Shown: positions 30-8,331 of the stretch, in pieces | Numbering within the stretch: the first letter of the stretch is position 1 | Layout: each line of letters starts with the position of its first letter | Assembly: GCA_003160265.1 (NCBI GenBank) | Contig: PLQY01000103.1 | Span: 10,817-22,165, forward strand | Direction of reading: 5' to 3' | From: Peptococcaceae bacterium | GTDB taxonomy: Bacteria; Bacillota; DSM-12270; Thermacetogeniales; Thermacetogeniaceae | DNA: 11,349 bases | Program-made: the position numbers and the translations under genes | The notes under the pieces: model-generated | Seen by the model: only the letters and a program-made list of their open reading frames with translations | The model's database searches: none | What the model was told of the DNA's origin: nothing

Positions 30-1121
30 TCAGCGTCTTTTAGCCCTCAAGCCCCGGCCTTGCAGGGCGAACAGGGCTGCTTCCGCATCCACGTCGGTCC
101 TGAAGGCCAACCTGAGGGTACCGCCGTCTCCCTCCCGGATCCGCAGGATCTCGATGTCAACAATGTTGATCCCTTGTTCTCCCAGAATGCCGGCGATCCC
201 GCCGATCGCCCCGGGACGGTCGGGCACTGTGGCCAGCACTTCGTACACCGCAGGGAGAAACCCCCGGACGACGCTGGGGATCCTAGCGCGCCCCGCCCGC
301 GCCCGCGTCAGCTTATCAGCGAGGGAGACAGTGTCGCCGTCTTCGAGACAACTCTCCATCTCCGACAGCACGGCGCGCAACTGCCTGCTTGTCTGCAGAA
401 TGAACTCCCGGTTGCTGGCAAAGATGTCCATCCACATGGAGGGGTCCCCCGAGGCCACCCGGGTCACGTCTCTGAAACCGCCGGCGGCCAGCAGCACGGC
501 GGCGGGGTGGTCTGGCTCCAGCGAAGAAGCCAGGTTCATCAGGGCCACCGCCAGCAGGTAGGGTTGATGGCTGACCGCAGCCACGATCAGGTCATGCTCC
601 CGGGGTGCCAGGCAGATTGGGCTGGCGCCGATCTCCCGCACCAACTGTTCGACTGCGCTGAGTGCCTGGGAACTGGTGCGTTCCGTAGGAGTCAGCACGT
701 AGATGGCGTTTTCGAACAGGTACTGATCGGCGCCGCTGATACCGGCGTGTTCAGAGCCGGTCATCGGGTGCCCGCCCACAAACCGGGCGGGGTAGAGGCC
801 TTCGAGAGTATTCACCACCTGTTCCTTGGTGCTCCCCACATCCGTGACGACAGCATCGGATGGCACCGAGTCCCTGATCAGGGCGGCTATCTCCATGATG
901 CCGGCGACCGGAACGGCCAGGAAGACGATTCCTGCGCCGGTGACGCCAAGGTGGTAGTCCGTCGTGCCCTCGTCAATGGCGCCGGTATCCAGGGCTACTC
1001 GCAGCGTCTGTTCATCCTGATCTATGCCTACGACGCGGTATTTACCCAGGGACTTGAGGCTCATGCCCAGAGAGCCTCCGATGACACCCAGGCCAATGAT
1101 GGAGATCTTGGTCTGTTGCAT
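30..1121 (-). CDS. tyrA: Prephenate dehydrogenase with C-terminal ACT domain
   Basis: The product oxidatively decarboxylates prephenate to 4-hydroxyphenylpyruvate with NAD(P)+, the branch step to tyrosine, in the cytoplasm. The 363-residue protein begins with a Rossmann dinucleotide site, G10-L-G12-V-I-G15. DVGSTK (94-99) and GGHPMTGSE (116-124) match the conserved Ser and His regions of the TyrA active site, and SHQPY follows in the helical dimerisation domain. Residues of about 290-363 ([20 protein letters not shown] and onward) form an ACT domain, which in this family usually binds tyrosine for feedback control. There is no chorismate mutase domain. The ATG at 1121 is chosen because GGAG lies seven bases upstream; the open frame extends further but overlaps aroF. 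The gene starts four bases after the aroF stop, so the two are co-transcribed and probably translationally coupled. Confidence 0.95.
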
Positions 1122-1125
1122 TTGT

Positions 1126-2160
1126 TTACTCCACGCCGGACGCATCGGCCAGGCGCCGCCCGATCGCCCTGGACAGGTCCCTGACCCCGGCAACCAGCAG
1201 ACGGAAGTTTTCCGGCGTCAGCGATTGCTCGCCATCAGACAGGGCCTCACTGGGAGAGGGATGCACCTCCACCATCAAACCGTCGGCGCCGGCAGCTATA
1301 GCCGCCCTGGCCATAGGTTGGACCAGCCACCATTTGCCGGTGCCATGGCTGGGATCCACAATCACCGGCAGGTGGGAGAGCCTTTTGATCACCGCTACTG
1401 CGCTCAGATCCAGAGTGTTTCTGGTATAGTTCTCGAAGGTCCTGATCCCCCGTTCGCACATGATCACCCGGTGGTTCCCGCCCAGCATGATATACTCGGC
1501 GGCCATCAGCCATTCCTCGATGGTGGCGGAGGGGCCCCGCGTCAGTAGTACCGGCTTGTCTATTTTCGCCACTTCCCTCAGCAGAAAAAAGTTCTGCATG
1601 TTCCGCGCCCCGATCTGGAGGATATCCGCATACTGGGAGACAAGAGGCACAAACCCGGTGTCCATGACTTCGGTCGTAATCAGCAGACCCGTCTGTGACC
1701 GGGCCTCAGCCAGTAACTCCAGCCCCTTTTCTTCAAGTCCCTGAAAAGAGTAGGGAGACGTCCGGGGCTTGTAGGCGCCTCCGCGCAGCAGGGTGGCGCC
1801 GGCCTCCTTGACTGCAAAGGCGGTCTCCAGGATCTGCTCCCGGCTCTCCACGGCGCAGGGGCCGGCGATAATGTGCACCTCACTGCCCCCGATGATGTGC
1901 GGGCCAACCCGGATCTTGGTGTCTTCCGGCTGGAAATCGCGGCTTGACAGTTTGAATGGATTGAGAATGGGGATCACTTTCTCCACCCCGGGCATGGCGC
2001 CCAGAGACAGGTTGAGCGCCCTCGTCCGGTCGCCGATCACCCCGATGATCGTCCTGGACACCCCCTGGGAGAGATGAACCGAAAAACCCTCACCGACCAG
2101 TTTGCTGCGCAACGCCTCGATATCCTTTGCGGTTGCCGAGGCCTCCATCACGATAACCAC
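1126..2160 (-). CDS. aroF: 3-deoxy-7-phosphoheptulonate (DAHP) synthase, type I-beta with N-terminal regulatory domain
   Basis: The enzyme condenses phosphoenolpyruvate and erythrose 4-phosphate to DAHP, the first step of the shikimate pathway. The protein has 344 residues, close to the roughly 338 of the Thermotoga maritima enzyme. Residues 1 to about 70 form a ferredoxin-like regulatory domain that in the Thermotoga type mediates tyrosine/phenylalanine inhibition. The barrel follows with [45 protein letters not shown] and SDGEQS. The Cys of GPC, His of DPSH, Glu of VEVHP and Asp of SDGEQ match the family's metal ligands. The GTG at 2160 is chosen because AAAAGGAGG lies eight bases upstream, although the frame stays open upstream through the leader. 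It heads an aroF-tyrA operon and is preceded by a promoter and a candidate attenuator. The symbol follows common Firmicute usage; aroG or aroA are used for the same family. Confidence 0.95.
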
Positions 2161-2205: not shown

Positions 2206-2268
2206 AAAAGGGTACTCACGCCAGGAGTACCCCCGATCAAACACCCTCGCTGCCGTACTGCTGTCCTG
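2206..2268 (-). promoter_or_regulatory. Candidate transcription attenuator in the aroF leader
   Basis: On the minus strand an 8-bp perfect stem, GGGTACTC (2232-2225) with GAGTACCC (2217-2210), encloses a 7-base loop and is followed directly by TTTT (2209-2206), a rho-independent terminator. It sits 46 bases before the aroF start codon, inside the leader. An upstream segment can pair instead with the terminator's 5' half and loop: CAGGA (2268-2264) with TCCTG (2226-2222), and GTAC (2258-2255) with GTAC (2230-2227), leaving a 5-base CAGCA bulge. The two structures exclude each other, the hallmark of attenuation. The T-box consensus (GGGTGG-N-ACCGCG) is absent, so I do not call it a T-box. The signal sensed is unknown. 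Confidence 0.55.
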
Positions 2269-2339
2269 CCTGATAAAGTTATTTCTCTCCCGCCGGAAAT
2301 ACCATACTTTCCTACCGTTTACCCACTCCGGCTGCTTCC

Positions 2340-2369
2340 ATTCTAGCACATATTTCCTCGCAGTGACAA
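2340..2369 (-). promoter_or_regulatory. Predicted housekeeping promoter of aroF-tyrA
   Basis: TTGTCA (2369-2364, five of six consensus bases) and TAGAAT (2345-2340, five of six) are separated by 18 bases. An extended -10 TGC precedes TAGAAT. Transcription would start near 2334, giving a leader of about 175 bases before the aroF GTG. The promoter lies in the gap after glpC, so aroF-tyrA need not depend on the glp operon for transcription. Confidence 0.65.
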
Positions 2370-2405: not shown

Positions 2406-3623
2406 TTATTTCTTTTCTTCCACCCTGCCGTAGGCCTGGTCTATCAACACCGCCGGATGCACGGCGCCGATGCCGGTGGCGTGGGAGATCTGCATGCAGC
2501 AACTGCTGCAGTCGGAAGCCACTAGGTCGGGGGCGATCTCTCTGATCCGGTTGAACAGCCGGGCGCCGATCTCCAGGGACAGCCGGTATTGCTCCTTCTT
2601 GAAGCCGAAGCTGCCGGACATGCCGCAGCAGCCCTCATCCACCTCGATCACCTGCAGGGACGGGATCTTCTTCAGGATCTCCAGGGACGGCTGGCCGATG
2701 CCCTGGGCCTTCAGGTGGCAGGGCGTATGGTAGGCCACTCTGAGCGCCAGATCACGGAAGCCGGAAGCGGGGGCGCCCCGCTGCTGCAGGGTCAGCAGCC
2801 ATTCGCTGAAATCATAGACGTTGGCTGCCAGTGACCGGGCCTGCGGCAGATTGTGGAGCTCCTCATACTCGCTCTTCAGGGCCAGGCCGCAGCTCGGGCA
2901 ACTGACGATCACCGGATAACCCTGCCGGACGAAGGGCAGCAGGTTGTCGAGGTTCTGCCCGGCCATGCGGGCGGCGTCCTCGAGGAACCCGTTGGCCGCC
3001 AGCGGCAGGCCGCAGCAGTTCGGCGGCGGCAGGATCACCTGGTAGCTGCACCGCTCCAGGATGTTGACCACGCTCCTGCCGATCTCCGGCAGGTTGTACT
3101 CGGCCGTACAGCCCGGGAAATACACCACCTTGTTTGGGGACGAATCGGGCTGCCGGCGCCGCTGGAACCATTTTTTGAGGTTCTCCCGGCTATAAGCCGG
3201 CAGCGGGCGTTCTCTGGCTATCCCCAGCCCCCGGTCCAGGGCGGCCCTGACCAGCCTGTTGTTGAGCACGTAGTTGGTGGCGCCGGCATTCAGGGAGCCC
3301 AACCTGGCCATCATCCCGGGCCGGCCGAGGATGCCGTCCCGCAGTTTGAGGCCCTGCCTGGTGTGCAGATCGTGCCTGTAGCAGGCATTCAGCAGGGAGA
3401 TCTTGACTCCAGAGGGGCAGGCCTGCTCGCAGGTACGGCAGTTGCAACAGTAATCGATCTGCGCCTCCAGGCCCAACCGGTCATCTAGTCGGAATCTGGT
3501 CATCTCCGGCCCCATGTGCTTGGGGCCGGCAAACCCCCCCGTCCTGCTCGCCACCGGGCAACTGGCGGTACAGAGCCCGCACTTGATGCACTTGTCCAGC
3601 TCACTCCTGATCGGCAGATCCAT
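2406..3623 (-). CDS. glpC: Anaerobic glycerol-3-phosphate dehydrogenase, iron-sulfur subunit C
   Basis: In the known GlpABC complex, GlpC passes electrons from the GlpAB flavoprotein dimer to the membrane quinone pool and anchors the complex. The protein has 405 residues (E. coli GlpC about 396). Two 4Fe-4S ferredoxin motifs lie near the N-terminus: C12-x2-C15-x2-C18-x3-C22-P and C59-x2-C62-x2-C65-x3-C69-P. Two cysteine-rich CCG domains follow, with NCCGLPL and EGCCGMSGSFG as their signatures. The ATG at 3623 has GGAGGGG seven bases upstream and overlaps nothing essential; a longer open frame upstream is only read-through over glpB. It overlaps the end of glpB by a few bases and is the last gene of the operon. 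Related CCG proteins occur in lactate and heterodisulfide systems, but the glpA and glpB context settles the assignment. Confidence 0.93.
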   Translation of the reverse strand: MDLPIRSELDKCIKCGLCTASCPVASRTGGFAGPKHMGPEMTRFRLDDRLGLEAQIDYCCNCRTCEQACPSGVKISLLNACYRHDLHTRQGLKLRDGILGRPGMMARLGSLNAGATNYVLNNRLVRAALDRGLGIARERPLPAYSRENLKKWFQRRRQPDSSPNKVVYFPGCTAEYNLPEIGRSVVNILERCSYQVILPPPNCCGLPLAANGFLEDAARMAGQNLDNLLPFVRQGYPVIVSCPSCGLALKSEYEELHNLPQARSLAANVYDFSEWLLTLQQRGAPASGFRDLALRVAYHTPCHLKAQGIGQPSLEILKKIPSLQVIEVDEGCCGMSGSFGFKKEQYRLSLEIGARLFNRIREIAPDLVASDCSSCCMQISHATGIGAVHPAVLIDQAYGRVEEKK

Positions 3624-3627
3624 GCGT

Positions 3628-4908
3628 TCACCCCTCCGTAGCGGCAGCGTTGCCAGCCACATATCCCGTGGCCAGGGCCACCCCCAGGCCATCCTTCCCG
3701 ACGGCCGGGTCATAACCGGCCAGGGTGCTGCCAGCCACAAACAGGCGGCGGTATTGCTCCGGATCGCCGTCTGTGGCGACCGGTCGCATCCGCCCGTCGA
3801 CGACCACCCCGGCCATGGCGAAGGGATCCCGCCCCCAGCCGGACGCTTCCCTGGCTTGACCGGGCAGGTCCCGGCCAGCCACCGGCAGTCCGGCCACACA
3901 CTCCCTGATCTGGGTCCGGTCGGCCTCCAGGCCGCGGCCGATCAGCCCTCCGGTGGCCAGCACCAGAGCGCCGCCGGTCACAACGGCGGCCCGGCCGGGC
4001 AGATCGAGCATCACCTGCCAGGCGCCATTCCTTCTCTCCGCGCTCAACACGCTGACATTGAAGCGGAATCCTACTCCGTACTGTTTCAGAAACTTTATAA
4101 GCAGTTGTGCCAGGCGCAAGCCGGTCACCGTCGGCTGCCCGGCCGGGATCTCGAACACGGGGCAGCCCAGGCGGGTTTCCACCTGCCGGAACAGCGCCGC
4201 CCCCTCATCGATACCGAGCACTGCGGGCAGGCCCAACCGGCCGGTGCCGGGTGTCAGAGACTTCCGGAGACCGGCGATCAGCAGCTCCAGATGCTGGGCA
4301 TTCTCCAGGAAACGTGCCATCATTACCGGAGTGAGTTCTGGGGCAGCTCCGGGGAGAGCGTCGAGCATCACGCTGCTCCAGGCGCCGCCCAGGCCGCGCC
4401 GGTTCCGGAGGTCATTGATGCCATCGGCGATCAGCTTGGGGTGCCAGTCCAACAGGTTCAGCCACCCCACCACCAGTGTGCCGGCCTCGTTCCGGATGTC
4501 CCCGCCGGCCATGGTGGCCGGCGCCAGGGCAGTCGGCCTGACGGTGCCCAGGGCGGTCGGCAGCAGGTAGTTGACCGCCCCCGATCCGCAATAGGGGTAG
4601 CCCACCGCCGGCATGACCTGCTGCCAGAATTCGATGCTCTCCTGAACTAGGTCGAGGCCGATCTTGGCATAGGGATGATCGGGGTCGATTGCGGCCAGGC
4701 GCTGCAGGCCGCCGGCAACGTCGGTAAGGCAGCGGCCCTCTGACCCCGGCAGACAGCCCAGGATGTCGATGCAGCCGGTGGTCAGGGCGAGCACCCCCTG
4801 TCCCCGGGCGAGCACCAGCACCGAGCGGCCGCCGGCGCTGGCCCGGGCGGCCGCGATCAATCCTGACAGCCCTGCTCCGATCACGATCACGTCATAGTCC
4901 ATAATCAT
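3628..4908 (-). CDS. glpB: Anaerobic glycerol-3-phosphate dehydrogenase, flavoprotein subunit B
   Basis: GlpB is the second flavoprotein subunit of the anaerobic glycerol-3-phosphate dehydrogenase and forms the catalytic dimer with GlpA. The 426 residues are close to E. coli GlpB (about 419). The N-terminus is a Rossmann FAD-binding fold, DVIVIGAG followed by LSG (residues 6-16), with an LTTGCIDIL segment at 42-50. The C-terminal LFVAGSTLAGYDP and GKDGLGVALATGYVAGN complete the FAD site. The ATG at 4908 follows AGGAAGCGG. A second in-frame ATG lies six bases later (4902) and would also work. The gene overlaps the 3' end of glpA by 17 bases, which points to translational coupling. The long in-frame extension upstream of 4908 is a shadow of glpA. 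Confidence 0.93.
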   Translation of the reverse strand: MIMDYDVIVIGAGLSGLIAAARASAGGRSVLVLARGQGVLALTTGCIDILGCLPGSEGRCLTDVAGGLQRLAAIDPDHPYAKIGLDLVQESIEFWQQVMPAVGYPYCGSGAVNYLLPTALGTVRPTALAPATMAGGDIRNEAGTLVVGWLNLLDWHPKLIADGINDLRNRRGLGGAWSSVMLDALPGAAPELTPVMMARFLENAQHLELLIAGLRKSLTPGTGRLGLPAVLGIDEGAALFRQVETRLGCPVFEIPAGQPTVTGLRLAQLLIKFLKQYGVGFRFNVSVLSAERRNGAWQVMLDLPGRAAVVTGGALVLATGGLIGRGLEADRTQIRECVAGLPVAGRDLPGQAREASGWGRDPFAMAGVVVDGRMRPVATDGDPEQYRRLFVAGSTLAGYDPAVGKDGLGVALATGYVAGNAAATEG

Positions 4909-6523
4909 CCGCTTCCTTTTGGAAGTTGTGCAGGTTGAGGTAGACGTTCCTGGCATACAAGCGCTCCCGGAGTTGATCACCCCAGAGCACTTCCTGGTTG
5001 CCCTTCCAGCGCTCGTCCAGGAATTCGCCCAGCAGGCGCCTGGCGCGGCCGAGGTCGAGCATACCGTCCTGGTACAACTGTCCGATCGCCCTGGCAGCGC
5101 AGATCGTCCCCTGGCAGGTGCCCATACCGAGCCGCGTCCGGCAGCGGAGGTCACCCAGCCGCAGCCAACTGCTGCCGGTGGCGCGCCACTCCAGCTCCGC
5201 CAGGCAGACCTGCTCGCACTCACAGACAAACTGTCTCTTCCAGCCGTTCCTGCTAAGGATGCCCAGCAGTTGGTCCAGGTCGGCCCGGCCCAGCCGCTCC
5301 GCCATTTTTTGGCTGACGGGTGGTGAGAAGTACCGCTGCAGTTGTCTGACCTGGGCTGCAGTCGCCTCAGGCAGCAACACCTCCACTGCCGTGCGGCAGG
5401 GAGCGTCATGCTCCAACAGGACGCAGACCAGGTTGGTGGCCTGCTCGGCCATCAGACGAAAGGTGGTCAGTTTGCCTCCCACCACCGTGATCAGGCCGCG
5501 CACACCCTGGCGCTCGTGATCGACCAGGGCGAACTGCCGGGCTACCGCCCGCCCGTCTTGTGGCCGCTGTCCCTCACCGCCGTTTTCCTGGTACAATGGT
5601 CTGACTCCGGCAAAGCTCCTGAGCACCCGGCGCTCGTCGAGTCCAGGCACCAGGTCCCGCCCCAGCAGCAACAGTTGATCAACTTCGGCCCGGCTGCTGC
5701 CCAGGTGTTCCGGCCCGTCGACCGGCACCGAGGTGGTGCCGAGGATCGCCACCGTATCCTGGGGCACGATGATATCGCCGTCCCCGGGACGCCGCAGCCG
5801 GTTGACCACCCGGTTGGTGACCCGGTGATTGAAGACCAGCAGGGAACCCTTGCTGGCCAGGATCTTAAGCTCACACCCCGCCAGCCGGGCGACCTGTCCC
5901 GCCCAGGCCCCGGCAGCGTTAACAATGAACCGGCACTCGATCTGACGCTGTTCACCCGTCCGCAGGTCGGTCACCAGCGCCCCCGAGACCGTCCCGTCCC
6001 GGACGATGATCCGGTCGACCCTGGTGTAGGTATAGGCCCTGGCGCCGTGTCCGGCAGCCGATCCGACATTCGCCCACACCAGAGCGAATCCGTCGATGGA
6101 GGCATCGGGCACGCGGAAAACCCTCTTCAGGGCGGGGTTCAGGTTCGGTTCCAGGCTGAGCGCCTCTGCCGCCGGGATCTCCTGAACAGCAATACCGGCC
6201 CTGAGGCAGGCAGCGAACCAGTCATCGGCATAGCCCGGATCATCACCGGGCAGGAGCACGAACAGGCCTCCGGTGTCATCAACGCAGCACCGGGCGATCC
6301 GCTTCAGGATGGCGTTCTCCTGCCGGCACTCCCGGGCCGACTCGGGATCGTTGACGGCATAACGGGCGCCGCTGTGCAGCAACCCGTGAAACCGGGAACT
6401 GGTACCGTAGGCCAGGTCCTGCTGTTCCGCCAGAATGGCGTCCACACCGCGCAGCGCCAGGTCTCGCAGCACCCCGGTCCCGGTGGCGCCTCCCCCGATC
6501 ACCAGAACATCCGTCTTCTCCAT
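4892..6523 (-). CDS. glpA: Anaerobic glycerol-3-phosphate dehydrogenase, FAD subunit A
   Basis: GlpA oxidises sn-glycerol 3-phosphate to dihydroxyacetone phosphate using FAD; electrons pass via GlpB/GlpC to the membrane. The protein has 543 residues, almost the E. coli length (542). VLVIGGGATGTG (6-17) is the FAD dinucleotide motif, and GTSSRFHGLLHSGARYA is the family's conserved substrate/FAD region. VVGGKLTTFRLMAE closes the DAO fold. The C-terminal domain has a BFD-like [2Fe-2S] ligand set, C434-x-C436-x33-C470-x4-C475, typical of GlpA and absent from aerobic GlpD. The ATG at 6523 has GGAGG seven bases upstream. A GTG two codons earlier overlaps the stop of a small upstream reading frame. 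First gene of glpABC; no glpK, glpF or glp regulator is in the window. Confidence 0.95.
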   Translation of the reverse strand: MEKTDVLVIGGGATGTGVLRDLALRGVDAILAEQQDLAYGTSSRFHGLLHSGARYAVNDPESARECRQENAILKRIARCCVDDTGGLFVLLPGDDPGYADDWFAACLRAGIAVQEIPAAEALSLEPNLNPALKRVFRVPDASIDGFALVWANVGSAAGHGARAYTYTRVDRIIVRDGTVSGALVTDLRTGEQRQIECRFIVNAAGAWAGQVARLAGCELKILASKGSLLVFNHRVTNRVVNRLRRPGDGDIIVPQDTVAILGTTSVPVDGPEHLGSSRAEVDQLLLLGRDLVPGLDERRVLRSFAGVRPLYQENGGEGQRPQDGRAVARQFALVDHERQGVRGLITVVGGKLTTFRLMAEQATNLVCVLLEHDAPCRTAVEVLLPEATAAQVRQLQRYFSPPVSQKMAERLGRADLDQLLGILSRNGWKRQFVCECEQVCLAELEWRATGSSWLRLGDLRCRTRLGMGTCQGTICAARAIGQLYQDGMLDLGRARRLLGEFLDERWKGNQEVLWGDQLRERLYARNVYLNLHNFQKEADDYGL

Positions 6524-6525
6524 GG

Positions 6526-6591
6526 TCACTCCTCCATGTCAGCCCATCCCCTGGCCAGCACGTCTCTCTGAGGATCACCTAGCTTCGACAT
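6526..6591 (-). CDS. Possible 21-residue leader peptide upstream of glpA
   Basis: A short frame starts at ATG (6591), 11 bases after a perfect AAGGAGG (6609-6603), and encodes a 21-residue acidic peptide beginning MSKLGDPQRD and ending ADMEE. Its TGA (6528-6526) ends three bases before the glpA ATG, so translation could be coupled. The Shine-Dalgarno sequence is stronger than chance would suggest in this gap, but the spacing is slightly long and no family is recognised. It could be a leader peptide, a decayed gene end, or chance. Confidence 0.3.
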   Translation of the reverse strand: MSKLGDPQRDVLARGWADMEE

Positions 6592-6613
6592 CGTCGGGGC
6601 AACCTCCTTCAGC

Positions 6614-6630
6614 CGGAACCGGCCGTTCCG
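6614..6630. promoter_or_regulatory. Inverted repeat in the glpA upstream region
   Basis: CGGAAC and GTTCCG are perfect 6-bp arms around a 5-base CGGCC centre. The repeat lies between the ferredoxin terminator and the AAGGAGG ahead of glpA, where an operator or a 5' leader hairpin would be expected. I see no convincing -35/-10 pair beside it: a TTGTCG with a TGCAAT 16 bases on is weak. Its role is inference from position only. Confidence 0.3.
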
Positions 6631-6660
6631 CATTGCAAGCGTCAGCCATGAAGCGACAAC

Positions 6661-6684
6661 AAAAAACCGGCGTCCGAAACGCCG
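6661..6684 (-). terminator. Rho-independent terminator after the ferredoxin gene
   Basis: On the minus strand CCGGCGT, loop TTCGG, ACGCCGG forms a perfect 7-bp GC-rich stem (6684-6666) followed by TTTTT (6665-6661). It begins 23 bases past the ferredoxin stop codon. This should insulate the glp operon from ferredoxin transcription. Confidence 0.9.
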
Positions 6685-6707
6685 GCCTATCAAGACAGGA
6701 TGCAAAT

Positions 6708-6890
6708 CTACTCCTCGAGGAGGACGATGGCCTCTTCCGGGCACTCCTCTACACAGGTCTCGCAAGCAGTGCAATCATCCGGACGGGTAACCTTGGACTT
6801 CTCGTTCTCAATATCAAATACTTCACTCGGACAAACGTCTGAACATGTTCCGCAACCGGTACACTTCTCAAGATCTACCTTCGGCGGCAT
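6708..6890 (-). CDS. 2[4Fe-4S] ferredoxin
   Basis: A 60-residue electron carrier of the clostridial bacterial-ferredoxin type. Two motifs bind the clusters: C10-x2-C13-x2-C16-x3-C20-P and C40-x2-C43-x2-C46-x3-C50-P. The chain is strongly acidic at its C-terminus, which is usual for low-potential cytoplasmic ferredoxins that serve hydrogenases, pyruvate:ferredoxin oxidoreductase and similar enzymes. The ATG at 6890 is preceded by GGGGAG and AAAGG. It has its own near-consensus promoter and its own terminator, so it is probably a single-gene, well-expressed unit. No dedicated redox partner is encoded beside it. The neighbouring GlpABC complex is thought to deliver electrons to quinone, so a link between the two is not implied. 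Confidence 0.93.
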   Translation of the reverse strand: MPPKVDLEKCTGCGTCSDVCPSEVFDIENEKSKVTRPDDCTACETCVEECPEEAIVLLEE

Positions 6891-6970: not shown

Positions 6971-7351
6971 TTAGGCGCTTCCGGAACTGAGATCCGGCCT
7001 CAAACCGGCAGCTTCTCCCAGGTAAACGTGCCTCACCTCGGACTGGCTCCTTTTCGTGTAGGCATGCATCAGGACCCGGATGCATTTTTCCATGGCCCCG
7101 GACACGGGGATCTCCGTCGTGCACATCAGGGGCGCCATGCTCCACCCCAGCCGGCGCGCCGCTTCAGCCGGAAAGACAGCGTCGAGATCGGCAGTCACGG
7201 AGAAGATGATGCTGACAATGTCTTCACTGCCGATCTCATTCTCTCCGGCTATCAGGGTCAGTAGTTGTTCCGTGGCCGTTATGATCGCCGTCCGGCTGTT
7301 TTCTGCCACGGTGACAGCGCCGCGTATTCCCCGTACCCTTGCCTCGTCCAC
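6971..7351 (-). CDS. aroH: Chorismate mutase, AroH type
   Basis: The enzyme rearranges chorismate to prephenate, the branch point to phenylalanine and tyrosine. At 126 residues it matches the monofunctional AroH fold of Bacillus subtilis (about 127). By alignment from memory the active-site set is intact: R10 in RGIRGAVTV, E80 in CTTEIPVSG, R92 in KCIRV, Y110 in RHVYL and R118 in GLRPDL, corresponding to Bacillus Arg7, Glu78, Arg90, Tyr108 and Arg116. The GTG at 7351 has GAGGGGG seven bases upstream; no in-frame ATG fits better. It begins 12 bases after the HutP-family stop, so the two are probably one transcript. It supplies the mutase step missing from TyrA in this window. No terminator is visible after it. 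Confidence 0.95.
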   Translation of the reverse strand: MDEARVRGIRGAVTVAENSRTAIITATEQLLTLIAGENEIGSEDIVSIIFSVTADLDAVFPAEAARRLGWSMAPLMCTTEIPVSGAMEKCIRVLMHAYTKRSQSEVRHVYLGEAAGLRPDLSSGSA

Positions 7352-7363
7352 ATCATCGCCCCC

Positions 7364-7789
7364 TCAGGAAACGGCCCGGTGGCCCAACCCGATGGCCACA
7401 TCATCCAGGTGCAGCAGGCCGAAGCCGAAGTATACGGCGACACTGATGTGATCCTTATAGCGGGCGATGCCGATTTTACCACCCACACTGAAACCGACCG
7501 CCTTCATTCCAATCTGGCTCAGGGCTTCCCTGGTCGCTCCGGCAATCGCTCCCTCTTCGCTGTGCGTTTCCCGGATCACACCCTCCCGCTTGGCAGCCAC
7601 GATCGCCCTCTCGATAAACTTCTTCAGGGAGACCACGTACTCACCGCCGCAGTCGACTGCGGCGGTCTTGATGCCAAGCTCACGGAATTCCAGCTTTTTT
7701 TTGCTCTCCTCTTCCCTGGTTTCCGTGATCGCCATCCTCACGGCTGAAGCTGCAACCTGCCGGCTTCCATAGTCTGCCAGAACAATCAC
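7364..7789 (-). CDS. HutP-family putative RNA-binding antiterminator
   Basis: A 141-residue protein with the HutP fold signature: VAASAVRMAITETREE, VDCGGEYVVSLKKFIERA, AAKREGVI, GATREAL, VGGKIGIARY and FGFGLLHLDDVAIGLGH. Bacillus HutP is a hexameric, histidine- and Mg2+-dependent RNA-binding protein that disrupts a terminator upstream of hut genes by binding spaced NAG triplets. No hut gene is present here. The Bacillus metal-contacting His73 and His77 align with glycines in this protein (G80 and G84), though H76, H127 and H137 are close by, so the ligand may differ. The gene sits directly upstream of aroH. The GTG at 7789 lies inside a GAGGTGAT sequence that is itself an excellent ribosome binding site; a CTG at 7780 would be ideally spaced from it. 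The family call is firm, the target is unknown. Confidence 0.85.
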   Translation of the reverse strand: MIVLADYGSRQVAASAVRMAITETREEESKKKLEFRELGIKTAAVDCGGEYVVSLKKFIERAIVAAKREGVIRETHSEEGAIAGATREALSQIGMKAVGFSVGGKIGIARYKDHISVAVYFGFGLLHLDDVAIGLGHRAVS

Positions 7790-7826: not shown

Positions 7827-8282
7827 TTACCTGGTGGCAAGCCGCCTCTCCAGGAACAACTGGTAATTCCTCATCTCTTCGCTGATCCGGTAGATGATCC
7901 GCTCGACGTCATGCTTGTCCAGAACGATCTCACTTGGAGCGATCACCTCGATCTTCCGGAACTCCTCTCTGAGCAGTAAGGGAATCAGGTCTTCGATAGA
8001 ATCCGAATCCAAGACAATCTCGATCGGCGCATAAGCCACGTCCCTGTTCGTTATCTCGTCCCTGACCGTATAGATCTCGCTGTCGGTATTGATCTCTTCA
8101 ATGCGCACCCCCTGAATGGGCAGGTTGCGCAGCACGATGGCCTTCCGCTCTCTGATCTCTTCGGCCACCTGCTCCCCCTCTTTGCCCCGCGCAAAGACCC
8201 GCCCCTGTTTTCCCTCGCCCCGATAATCGAAGCGCGCCCGCACCCTCATCATCTTTTCACTTTTCCCTATTTCTCCGATCAT
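7827..8282 (-). CDS. Conserved-looking hypothetical protein, family not recognised
   Basis: About 151 residues, strongly charged, with no signal peptide, membrane segment or cysteine cluster. The N-terminal part is basic (MMRVRARFDYRGEGKQGR) and is followed by a likely helix EGEQVAEEIRERK, a hydrophobic-alternating beta-like segment, then two parallel stretches: APIEIVLDSDSIEDLIPLLL and APSEIVLDKHDVERIIYRI. These share A-P-x-E-I-V-L-D, suggesting an internal duplication. Start choice is uncertain. ATG 8282 has GGGGGTGG six bases upstream; a GTG at 8321 and an ATG at 8252 are alternatives. It ends 37 bases before the HutP-family gene and is probably in the same transcript, so a role in regulation is possible but is only guilt by association. 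Confidence 0.6.
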   Translation of the reverse strand: MIGEIGKSEKMMRVRARFDYRGEGKQGRVFARGKEGEQVAEEIRERKAIVLRNLPIQGVRIEEINTDSEIYTVRDEITNRDVAYAPIEIVLDSDSIEDLIPLLLREEFRKIEVIAPSEIVLDKHDVERIIYRISEEMRNYQLFLERRLATR

Positions 8283-8331
8283 CTCAAGCCACCCCCAGGA
8301 TTTACTAACTGTTTCTTCCACAGATGACTAC

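Follow-up and report, generated by a model that had tools for sequence, protein, structure and literature searches.

What is the role of a HutP protein whose gene directly precedes a gene for chorismate mutase? This question is raised by a stretch of 11,349 nucleotides from a Peptococcaceae bacterium (contig PLQY01000103.1), which was analysed at full length and is referred to here as the window. An initial annotation had described a hutP-like gene ending 12 bases before aroH with no hut gene in sight, together with an apparent attenuator before aroF-tyrA, and had proposed an antiterminator dedicated to aromatic amino acid synthesis. Both open reading frames and the 12-base spacing (7352-7363) are indeed present on the minus strand, and the main genes of the window, judged by the list of open reading frames and by Pfam profiles, include no hut gene. 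The genes in question are:

7364..7789, minus strand: hutP of the aro type (PF09021), 141 aa; PF09021 profile, 159.2 bits, E 7e-47
6971..7351, minus strand: aroH, monofunctional chorismate mutase, 126 aa; CM_1 157.7 bits, TIGR01796 exceeds its cut-off
1126..2160, minus strand: aroF, DAHP synthase with ferredoxin-like domain; PF00793 and PF18152, PRK08673 over its cut-off; start codon at 2160 assumed
30..1118, minus strand: tyrA, prephenate dehydrogenase with ACT domain; PF02153, PF20463 and PF01842; start assumed

The PF09021 match of the window protein covers model positions 1-128 of 128, its score of 159.2 bits compares with a curated cut-off of 25, and it is the sole Pfam match of the protein. 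The protein also has the HutP fold, as does HutP of Bacillus subtilis. It is encoded by the only PF09021 gene of its own genome (1.78 Mb, 84.7% complete), in which no match to urocanase (PF01175) was found; its named relatives, judged by sequence, are Thermacetogenium and Syntrophaceticus. A 164-aa protein without Pfam or NCBIfam match is encoded at 7827-8321 (minus strand), and in many loci it lies between rluB/cobO and hutP. In the window, aroH and aroF are separated by a glpABC-like cluster and a small dicluster ferredoxin gene (2406-6890, minus strand). At loci L032-L034 the ferredoxin gene is kept, and homologues of the glp genes were not found there.

The window protein is a HutP by fold and by family that stands outside the L-histidine-activated hut system. 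In a tree of PF09021 proteins that took in 33 aro-type rows, the aro (support 100/99) and hut (100/100) proteins lie on separate sides of branches, with the bootstrap unsettled (0.987), and the window protein falls outside the hut clade. The aro clade has a mean column identity of 74% (19 sequences). The columns of H73 and H77, which together with H138 we take to be the metal/L-His ligands of B. subtilis HutP, contain Gly in 94 of 94 aro-type rows, some species being represented twice, and the H138 column is a gap, depending on the alignment. By contrast, hut and b_HH rows retain H73/H77/H138. The last His (H147 of B. subtilis) is conserved in 95 of 95 rows, B. subtilis included. Among the residues that presumably read UAG in B. 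subtilis HutP, E55, T56, R98, T99 and E137 are not conserved in the aro clade; E81 is conserved.

Other clades of PF09021 were seen as well. The b_HH clade (L142-L151, L124), which keeps H73/H77/H138, has CoA transferases, carboxyl transferase, the oxaloacetate decarboxylase beta subunit, an ammonium transporter or sigma-54 activators as neighbours, and at L124 an array of three UAG-N4 units (1991-2007) overlaps the ribosome-binding site of a CoA transferase gene. A small clade (L116, L117, L119, L147) carries Arg in place of both H73 and H77, and its genes in L116 and L147 are followed by one for an ABC transporter whose membrane and ATPase domains are fused. A separate clade (L152 at 4053-4844, minus strand; L134, L141, L161 and others) consists of proteins of ~260 aa with two CBS domains and a C-terminal HutP domain. 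The L152 fusion gene has ispF on one side and a GluRS-like gene on the other; ispD and a gene for a PIN-domain protein are found upstream.

Among 398 sampled genomes of the phylum, PF09021 is present in 257 and aroH (PF07736) in 289; both occur in 215, PF09021 only in 42, aroH only in 74, and neither in 67. A neighbourhood survey, the check that the initial annotation had suggested, reveals that the adjacency is common rather than rare. The aroH gene lies immediately 3' of hutP on the same strand in 29 of the 30 best phylum loci, the 30th of which stops at a contig edge, and immediately 3' in 71 of 80 named loci, including Moorella, Desulfotomaculum, Desulfosporosinus, Syntrophomonas and Acetivibrio. 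The same holds for 118 of the 150 best-scoring HutP rows of the phylum sample, which were taken one per genome and are not a random draw of the family. With aroH as the next gene in the window and in these 118 rows, no linkage to hut genes was found. In the other 32 rows, aroH is elsewhere or on another contig (18) or has no match (14), and in four of the nine named exceptions aroF is the next labelled gene, at a distance of ~250-560 nt. Across the named loci the hutP-aroH pair stays while the wider neighbours (spmAB, rluB, orf164, aroF, tyrA) vary. In three genomes (G201, G298, G226) a TrpX-type transporter adjoins hutP, and aroH is absent or on another contig. The pairing of hutP with aroH is not due to chance.

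The starting point for a candidate RNA target was a group of three loci (L164, L169, L177) in which aro-type hutP precedes a TrpX-type ABC transporter instead of aroH. The L164 transporter comprises PF04392, BPD_transp_2 and ABC_tran, L177 has PF04392, and the gene order of L169 is as in L164. Three TrpX-type proteins were tested against NCBIfam, and each matched NF041285 (TrpX) alone, with scores of 335-346 bits that stay below the cut-off of 390. The gap between hutP and the transporter contains a stretch that resembles a promoter, three GUAG units that recur every 8 nt, and a terminator; an Rfam search of this gap gave no family matches. In 1.42 Mb of loci the strict pattern GTAGN4GTAGN4GTAG has ten matches, all of them intergenic and followed by aroF (4), aroH (2) or TrpX-type genes (4), compared with 0 and 2 matches for the GATG and GGAT versions used as controls. 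The spacer columns, which had played no part in the selection, are conserved among 34 instances, with A in 28/34 and 33/34, Y in 32/34 and 33/34, and G in 29/34 twice. From these instances we derived the refined pattern GYAGNAYRGYAGNAYRGYAG, i.e. (GYAGNAYR)3, an element in which GYAG occurs three times with a period of 8 nt and 5 nt separate one UAG from the next.

When the 398 whole genomes were searched, the refined pattern was found at 106 places, six of which fall within one repeat region of G022, as opposed to 7 places for the reversed pattern. It occurs in 82 of the 257 PF09021-bearing genomes, 175 being without it, and in only 4 of the 141 PF09021-less genomes (Fisher p 1.1e-13, kinship uncorrected). 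Among these four, G022 carries the tandem repeat, and completeness is 80% for G121 and 87% for G356. For G001 no such reason is apparent: it has two sites and neither PF09021 nor TRAP, with one site before a trigger factor gene and the other before no called gene. Within a single genus, the strict pattern accompanies an aro-type gene (assigned by score) in G115 and G226, and G149, with only a b_HH gene, has neither pattern. Some sites, such as those of trpX in G341 and G124, share a contig with hutP but are far away from it. At the hut-type locus L123, which served as a positive control, three UAG-N4 units with a period of 7 follow right after hutP, before a terminator-like hairpin. Being found mainly in genomes with PF09021 and placed before aromatic amino acid genes, the leader element suggests an RNA switch that has gone unrecognised. 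In G304 and G387 (family f123) there are 20 and 29 strict GTAG-repeat matches; those listed are near-identical and resemble dispersed repeats, not leaders.

As target we called the best-scoring homologue of a reference protein starting at most 700 nt downstream of a site (loci L182-L285, misses included; L182-L187 stem from hand-chosen genomes and L246-L285 were hand-picked from the whole-genome site list). For 79 distinct refined sites, the target so called is aroF in 36 cases, trpX in 11, aroH in 4, hutP in 4, tyrA in 2, paaK (phenylacetate-CoA ligase) in 2, and pheA and an aminotransferase gene in one each, so that 61 of 79 are aromatic. The remainder comprises DctP transporters (6), sodium-solute symporters (3), beta-RFAP-synthase-like (2), AMP-binding (1) and trigger factor (1) genes and five sites without a labelled gene. 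At L191, where the strict but not the refined pattern matches, a gene of the tryptophanase/tyrosine phenol-lyase family is next. A matrix trained on L182-L285 minus the window site was then applied to the named loci and the window, some species being in both sets. Sites at p 0.01 or better were found in 23/38 aroF, 8/59 aroH and 12/70 hutP upstream regions, and no such site in 15/38, 51/59 and 58/70, respectively. A best score of at least 12 bits was reached in 20/38 aroF regions vs 5/38 reversed ones (hutP 8/70 vs 4/70, aroH 3/59 vs 0/59). Before some aroH genes (L101, L104, L250, L251) the element abuts the ribosome-binding site, which suggests translational control at these genes, too.

In the window itself the element lies in the leader of aroF-tyrA, where a promoter-like site, the element and a terminator precede the genes in this order:

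2340..2369, minus strand: sigma-70-like promoter site of aroF-tyrA (TTGTCA, 18 nt, TAGAAT, with TG before); 10 of 12 consensus bases
2250..2269, minus strand: candidate HutP-binding element GCAG-N4-GCAG-N4-GCAG, the sole GYAGNAYRGYAGNAYRGYAG match in its own genome
2210..2234, minus strand: intrinsic terminator hairpin followed by a T run, from folding of the aroF leader

The hairpin provides the attenuator that had been suspected before aroF-tyrA. Scored with the matrix trained without it, the window element reaches 25.7 bits, a value attained by none of 100 shuffles. The promoter assignment reflects the consensus match only, and promoter-type sites number 5 in the window vs 2.5 in shuffles. 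A looser array, GGTAAACGGTAGGAAAGTATGGTA, at 2300-2323 (minus strand), lies upstream of the main element in the same leader and might represent an additional, weak site.

Among 58 sites, 51 have a hairpin of -6 kcal/mol or below and a T run behind them, compared with 33 of 174 shuffles. To simulate occupancy, the site was held unpaired in 56 of 85 sites; the other 29 had no hairpin of -8 kcal/mol or below within 75 nt. Duplicate leaders and L184, L185, L187, L219 and L225 were left out of both the hairpin count and the occupancy test, and L218, L274, L275 and L285 were also left out of the latter. The mean terminator probability rises from 0.66 to 0.84 with the site held, compared with 0.65 for upstream 20-nt control blocks (56 sites; Wilcoxon 5.5e-6). 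It increases by at least 0.3 in 15 of 56 leaders, as opposed to 2 with control blocks, and where the terminator is unlikely (16 leaders), holding the element brings 10 leaders to at least 0.8, which the control blocks do in no case. A decrease of at least 0.2 is seen in L113, L210, L243 and L254, and one of ~0.1 in L078 and L216. These simulations suggest that occupancy promotes termination, at least for biosynthesis and uptake genes. An attenuator is likelier than an antiterminator, because simulated occupancy favours the terminator in the leader set. For the window's own leader, the modelled switch is not robust and depends on the ends chosen: in the set-wide folding test the terminator probability changes only from 0.04 to 0.07; over 12 end settings it goes up in 8, stays level in 1 and goes down in 3; and when the leader runs from the assumed start and is cut at the hairpin end, it is 0.28 free and 0.87 bound. 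The third-repeat pairing has a z of 0.1.

Fold, clade, loss of the histidine/Mg ligands, linkage, element, regulon, co-occurrence of element and HutP, and folding bias have all been computed, and from them we infer binder, ligand and sign of control: aro-type HutP is likely an RNA-binding regulator of aromatic metabolism that reads (GYAGNAYR)3 leaders by TRAP-like attenuation. HutP of B. subtilis is a hexamer that binds RNA, and the aro-type protein, presumably oligomeric as well, would be a binder of single-stranded RNA. In the window it would bind the leader element before aroF-tyrA, and elsewhere it would read the element before aroF, trpX, aroH/hutP, tyrA, pheA and related genes. When an end product, most likely Trp, Tyr or Phe, is plentiful, the protein would cover the repeats, which would then lose their alternative pairing, so that the downstream intrinsic terminator could form. 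Where the element lies at the ribosome-binding site, as in some aroH genes, the protein may hide that site instead. The overall logic would be that of TRAP, executed by a HutP fold. Three facts weigh most heavily against this reading: 175 PF09021-bearing genomes have no refined pattern, the switch is weak in the window's own leader, and the aro clade has lost residues that presumably read UAG. Of the original proposal of an aromatic antiterminator, an aromatic RNA regulator of the HutP kind appears well supported by adjacency, distinct clade and triple-NAG element, but antitermination is probably the wrong sign of control, as modelled occupancy favours the terminator.

Conceivably, aro-type HutP binds the element but acts as an antiterminator, like the hut system of B. 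subtilis. PMC12456014 presents HutP as an antiterminator whose binding to RNA requires the inducer, and occupancy lowers the terminator probability in L210 and L243 and, to a lesser degree, in four other leaders. However, the far more numerous gains over the control blocks run the other way, and end-product control of biosynthesis and uptake needs repression, so we regard antitermination as unlikely. The reader of the element might instead be TRAP (MtrB), with another role in the operon for aro-type HutP. TRAP binds (G/U)AG repeats and acts by attenuation, and among the 82 site-bearing PF09021 genomes 72 were tested, of which 55, the own genome (G000:C29) included, have a TRAP match (PF02081). 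Yet 17 of these 72 genomes have PF09021 and the site but no TRAP match. Conversely, 80 of the 141 PF09021-less genomes were tested and 22 have TRAP, but 20 of the 22 are without the refined pattern, the two carriers being G022, with its tandem repeat, and the 80% complete G121. Moreover, TRAP targets consist of 9-11 (G/U)AG triplets with 2-3 nt spacers, a rule that three triplets with a period of 8 do not fit. The geometry of the element favours HutP, because the hut-type UAG-N4-UAG-N4-UAG of L123 is a close cousin of GYAG repeats with a period of 8. TRAP as the reader thus seems quite improbable.

It could also be asked if the adjacency merely reflects passive operon inheritance, HutP being a protein partner of AroH or having an unrelated core role, and the repeats belonging to another factor. 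The aro clade is unusually conserved for a local regulator, as judged by the column identity given above, an aroH match is absent in 14 of the best 150 genomes, and in these 14 hutP lies near cmk in two and near mraZ in one. On the other hand, the element co-occurs with PF09021 even where sites are far from hutP, and an element of the NAG-repeat kind is found at a hut-type locus; we therefore give this explanation little credence. A protein that still senses L-histidine and exerts histidine-responsive cross-pathway control would agree with the shared fold and the invariant H147. This is hardly probable considering the loss of the H73/H77/H138 set in aro-type rows, which hut and b_HH rows retain, and the distribution of urocanase, which is absent in 20 of the 29 tested genomes that have no second PF09021 gene of hut length but present in 10 of the 11 that do.

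Returning to attenuation by aro-type HutP, we lean, with some reserve, towards a more general view, in which PF09021 would comprise metabolite-responsive RNA regulators in at least five Bacillota clades, rather than being devoted to histidine use with a few stray members. The aro clade would be a second TRAP-like attenuation system serving a whole aromatic regulon via (GYAGNAYR)3, and the pocket, on losing the histidine and metal ligands, would have become accessible to an aromatic one. If this is true, the regulon of the aro clade covers biosynthesis, catabolism and TrpX-type uptake and in some genomes extends to hutP. Aromatic amino acid control in many anaerobic Bacillota would gain a candidate protein, a defined RNA element and a target list, and a gene now annotated as 'hut operon positive regulator HutP' would turn into an aromatic regulator that can be tested. 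A further lesson would be how a single RNA-binding fold could be adapted to other ligands and to control of the opposite sign. For low-GC Gram-positives, the regulation of aromatic metabolism was reportedly treated by Panina et al. in 2003. In our literature search, outside of which most subscription papers lay, no paper with both HutP and aroH was found and the phrase 'HutP family' was absent; among the titles listed in this search, none was on the aro-type HutP clade.

The T-box leader (RF00230), which PMC9382623 describes as an RNA control of trpX in Streptococcus suis, resembles the proposed system in acting through the leaders of genes for aromatic biosynthesis and TrpX-type uptake. A search with the T-box model gave no matches in the window, and in 43 distinct loci no match reached the gathering score. 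Sub-threshold matches are seen only in L194 (622-876 and 1000-1166), from genome G121, which has the element before aroF. By its logic the proposed system resembles TRAP (MtrB, PF02081) of B. subtilis, in which a ring protein loaded with the end product covers NAG repeats so that a terminator forms at aromatic amino acid genes. Unlike TRAP, the window protein belongs to another family by profile, matching PF09021 only and not PF02081, and its element has three repeats with a period of 8, as opposed to ~11 repeats with 2-3 nt spacers. HutP of B. subtilis (PF09021; PDB 1vea, 1wmq) is in turn the relative by family, but the aro-type proteins form a separate clade, have lost the H73/H77/H138 set and carry changes at E55/T56/T99. 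Their element has a period of 8 nt, not 7, and is associated with aromatic instead of hut genes, and in contrast to the B. subtilis protein, aro-type HutP probably favours termination.
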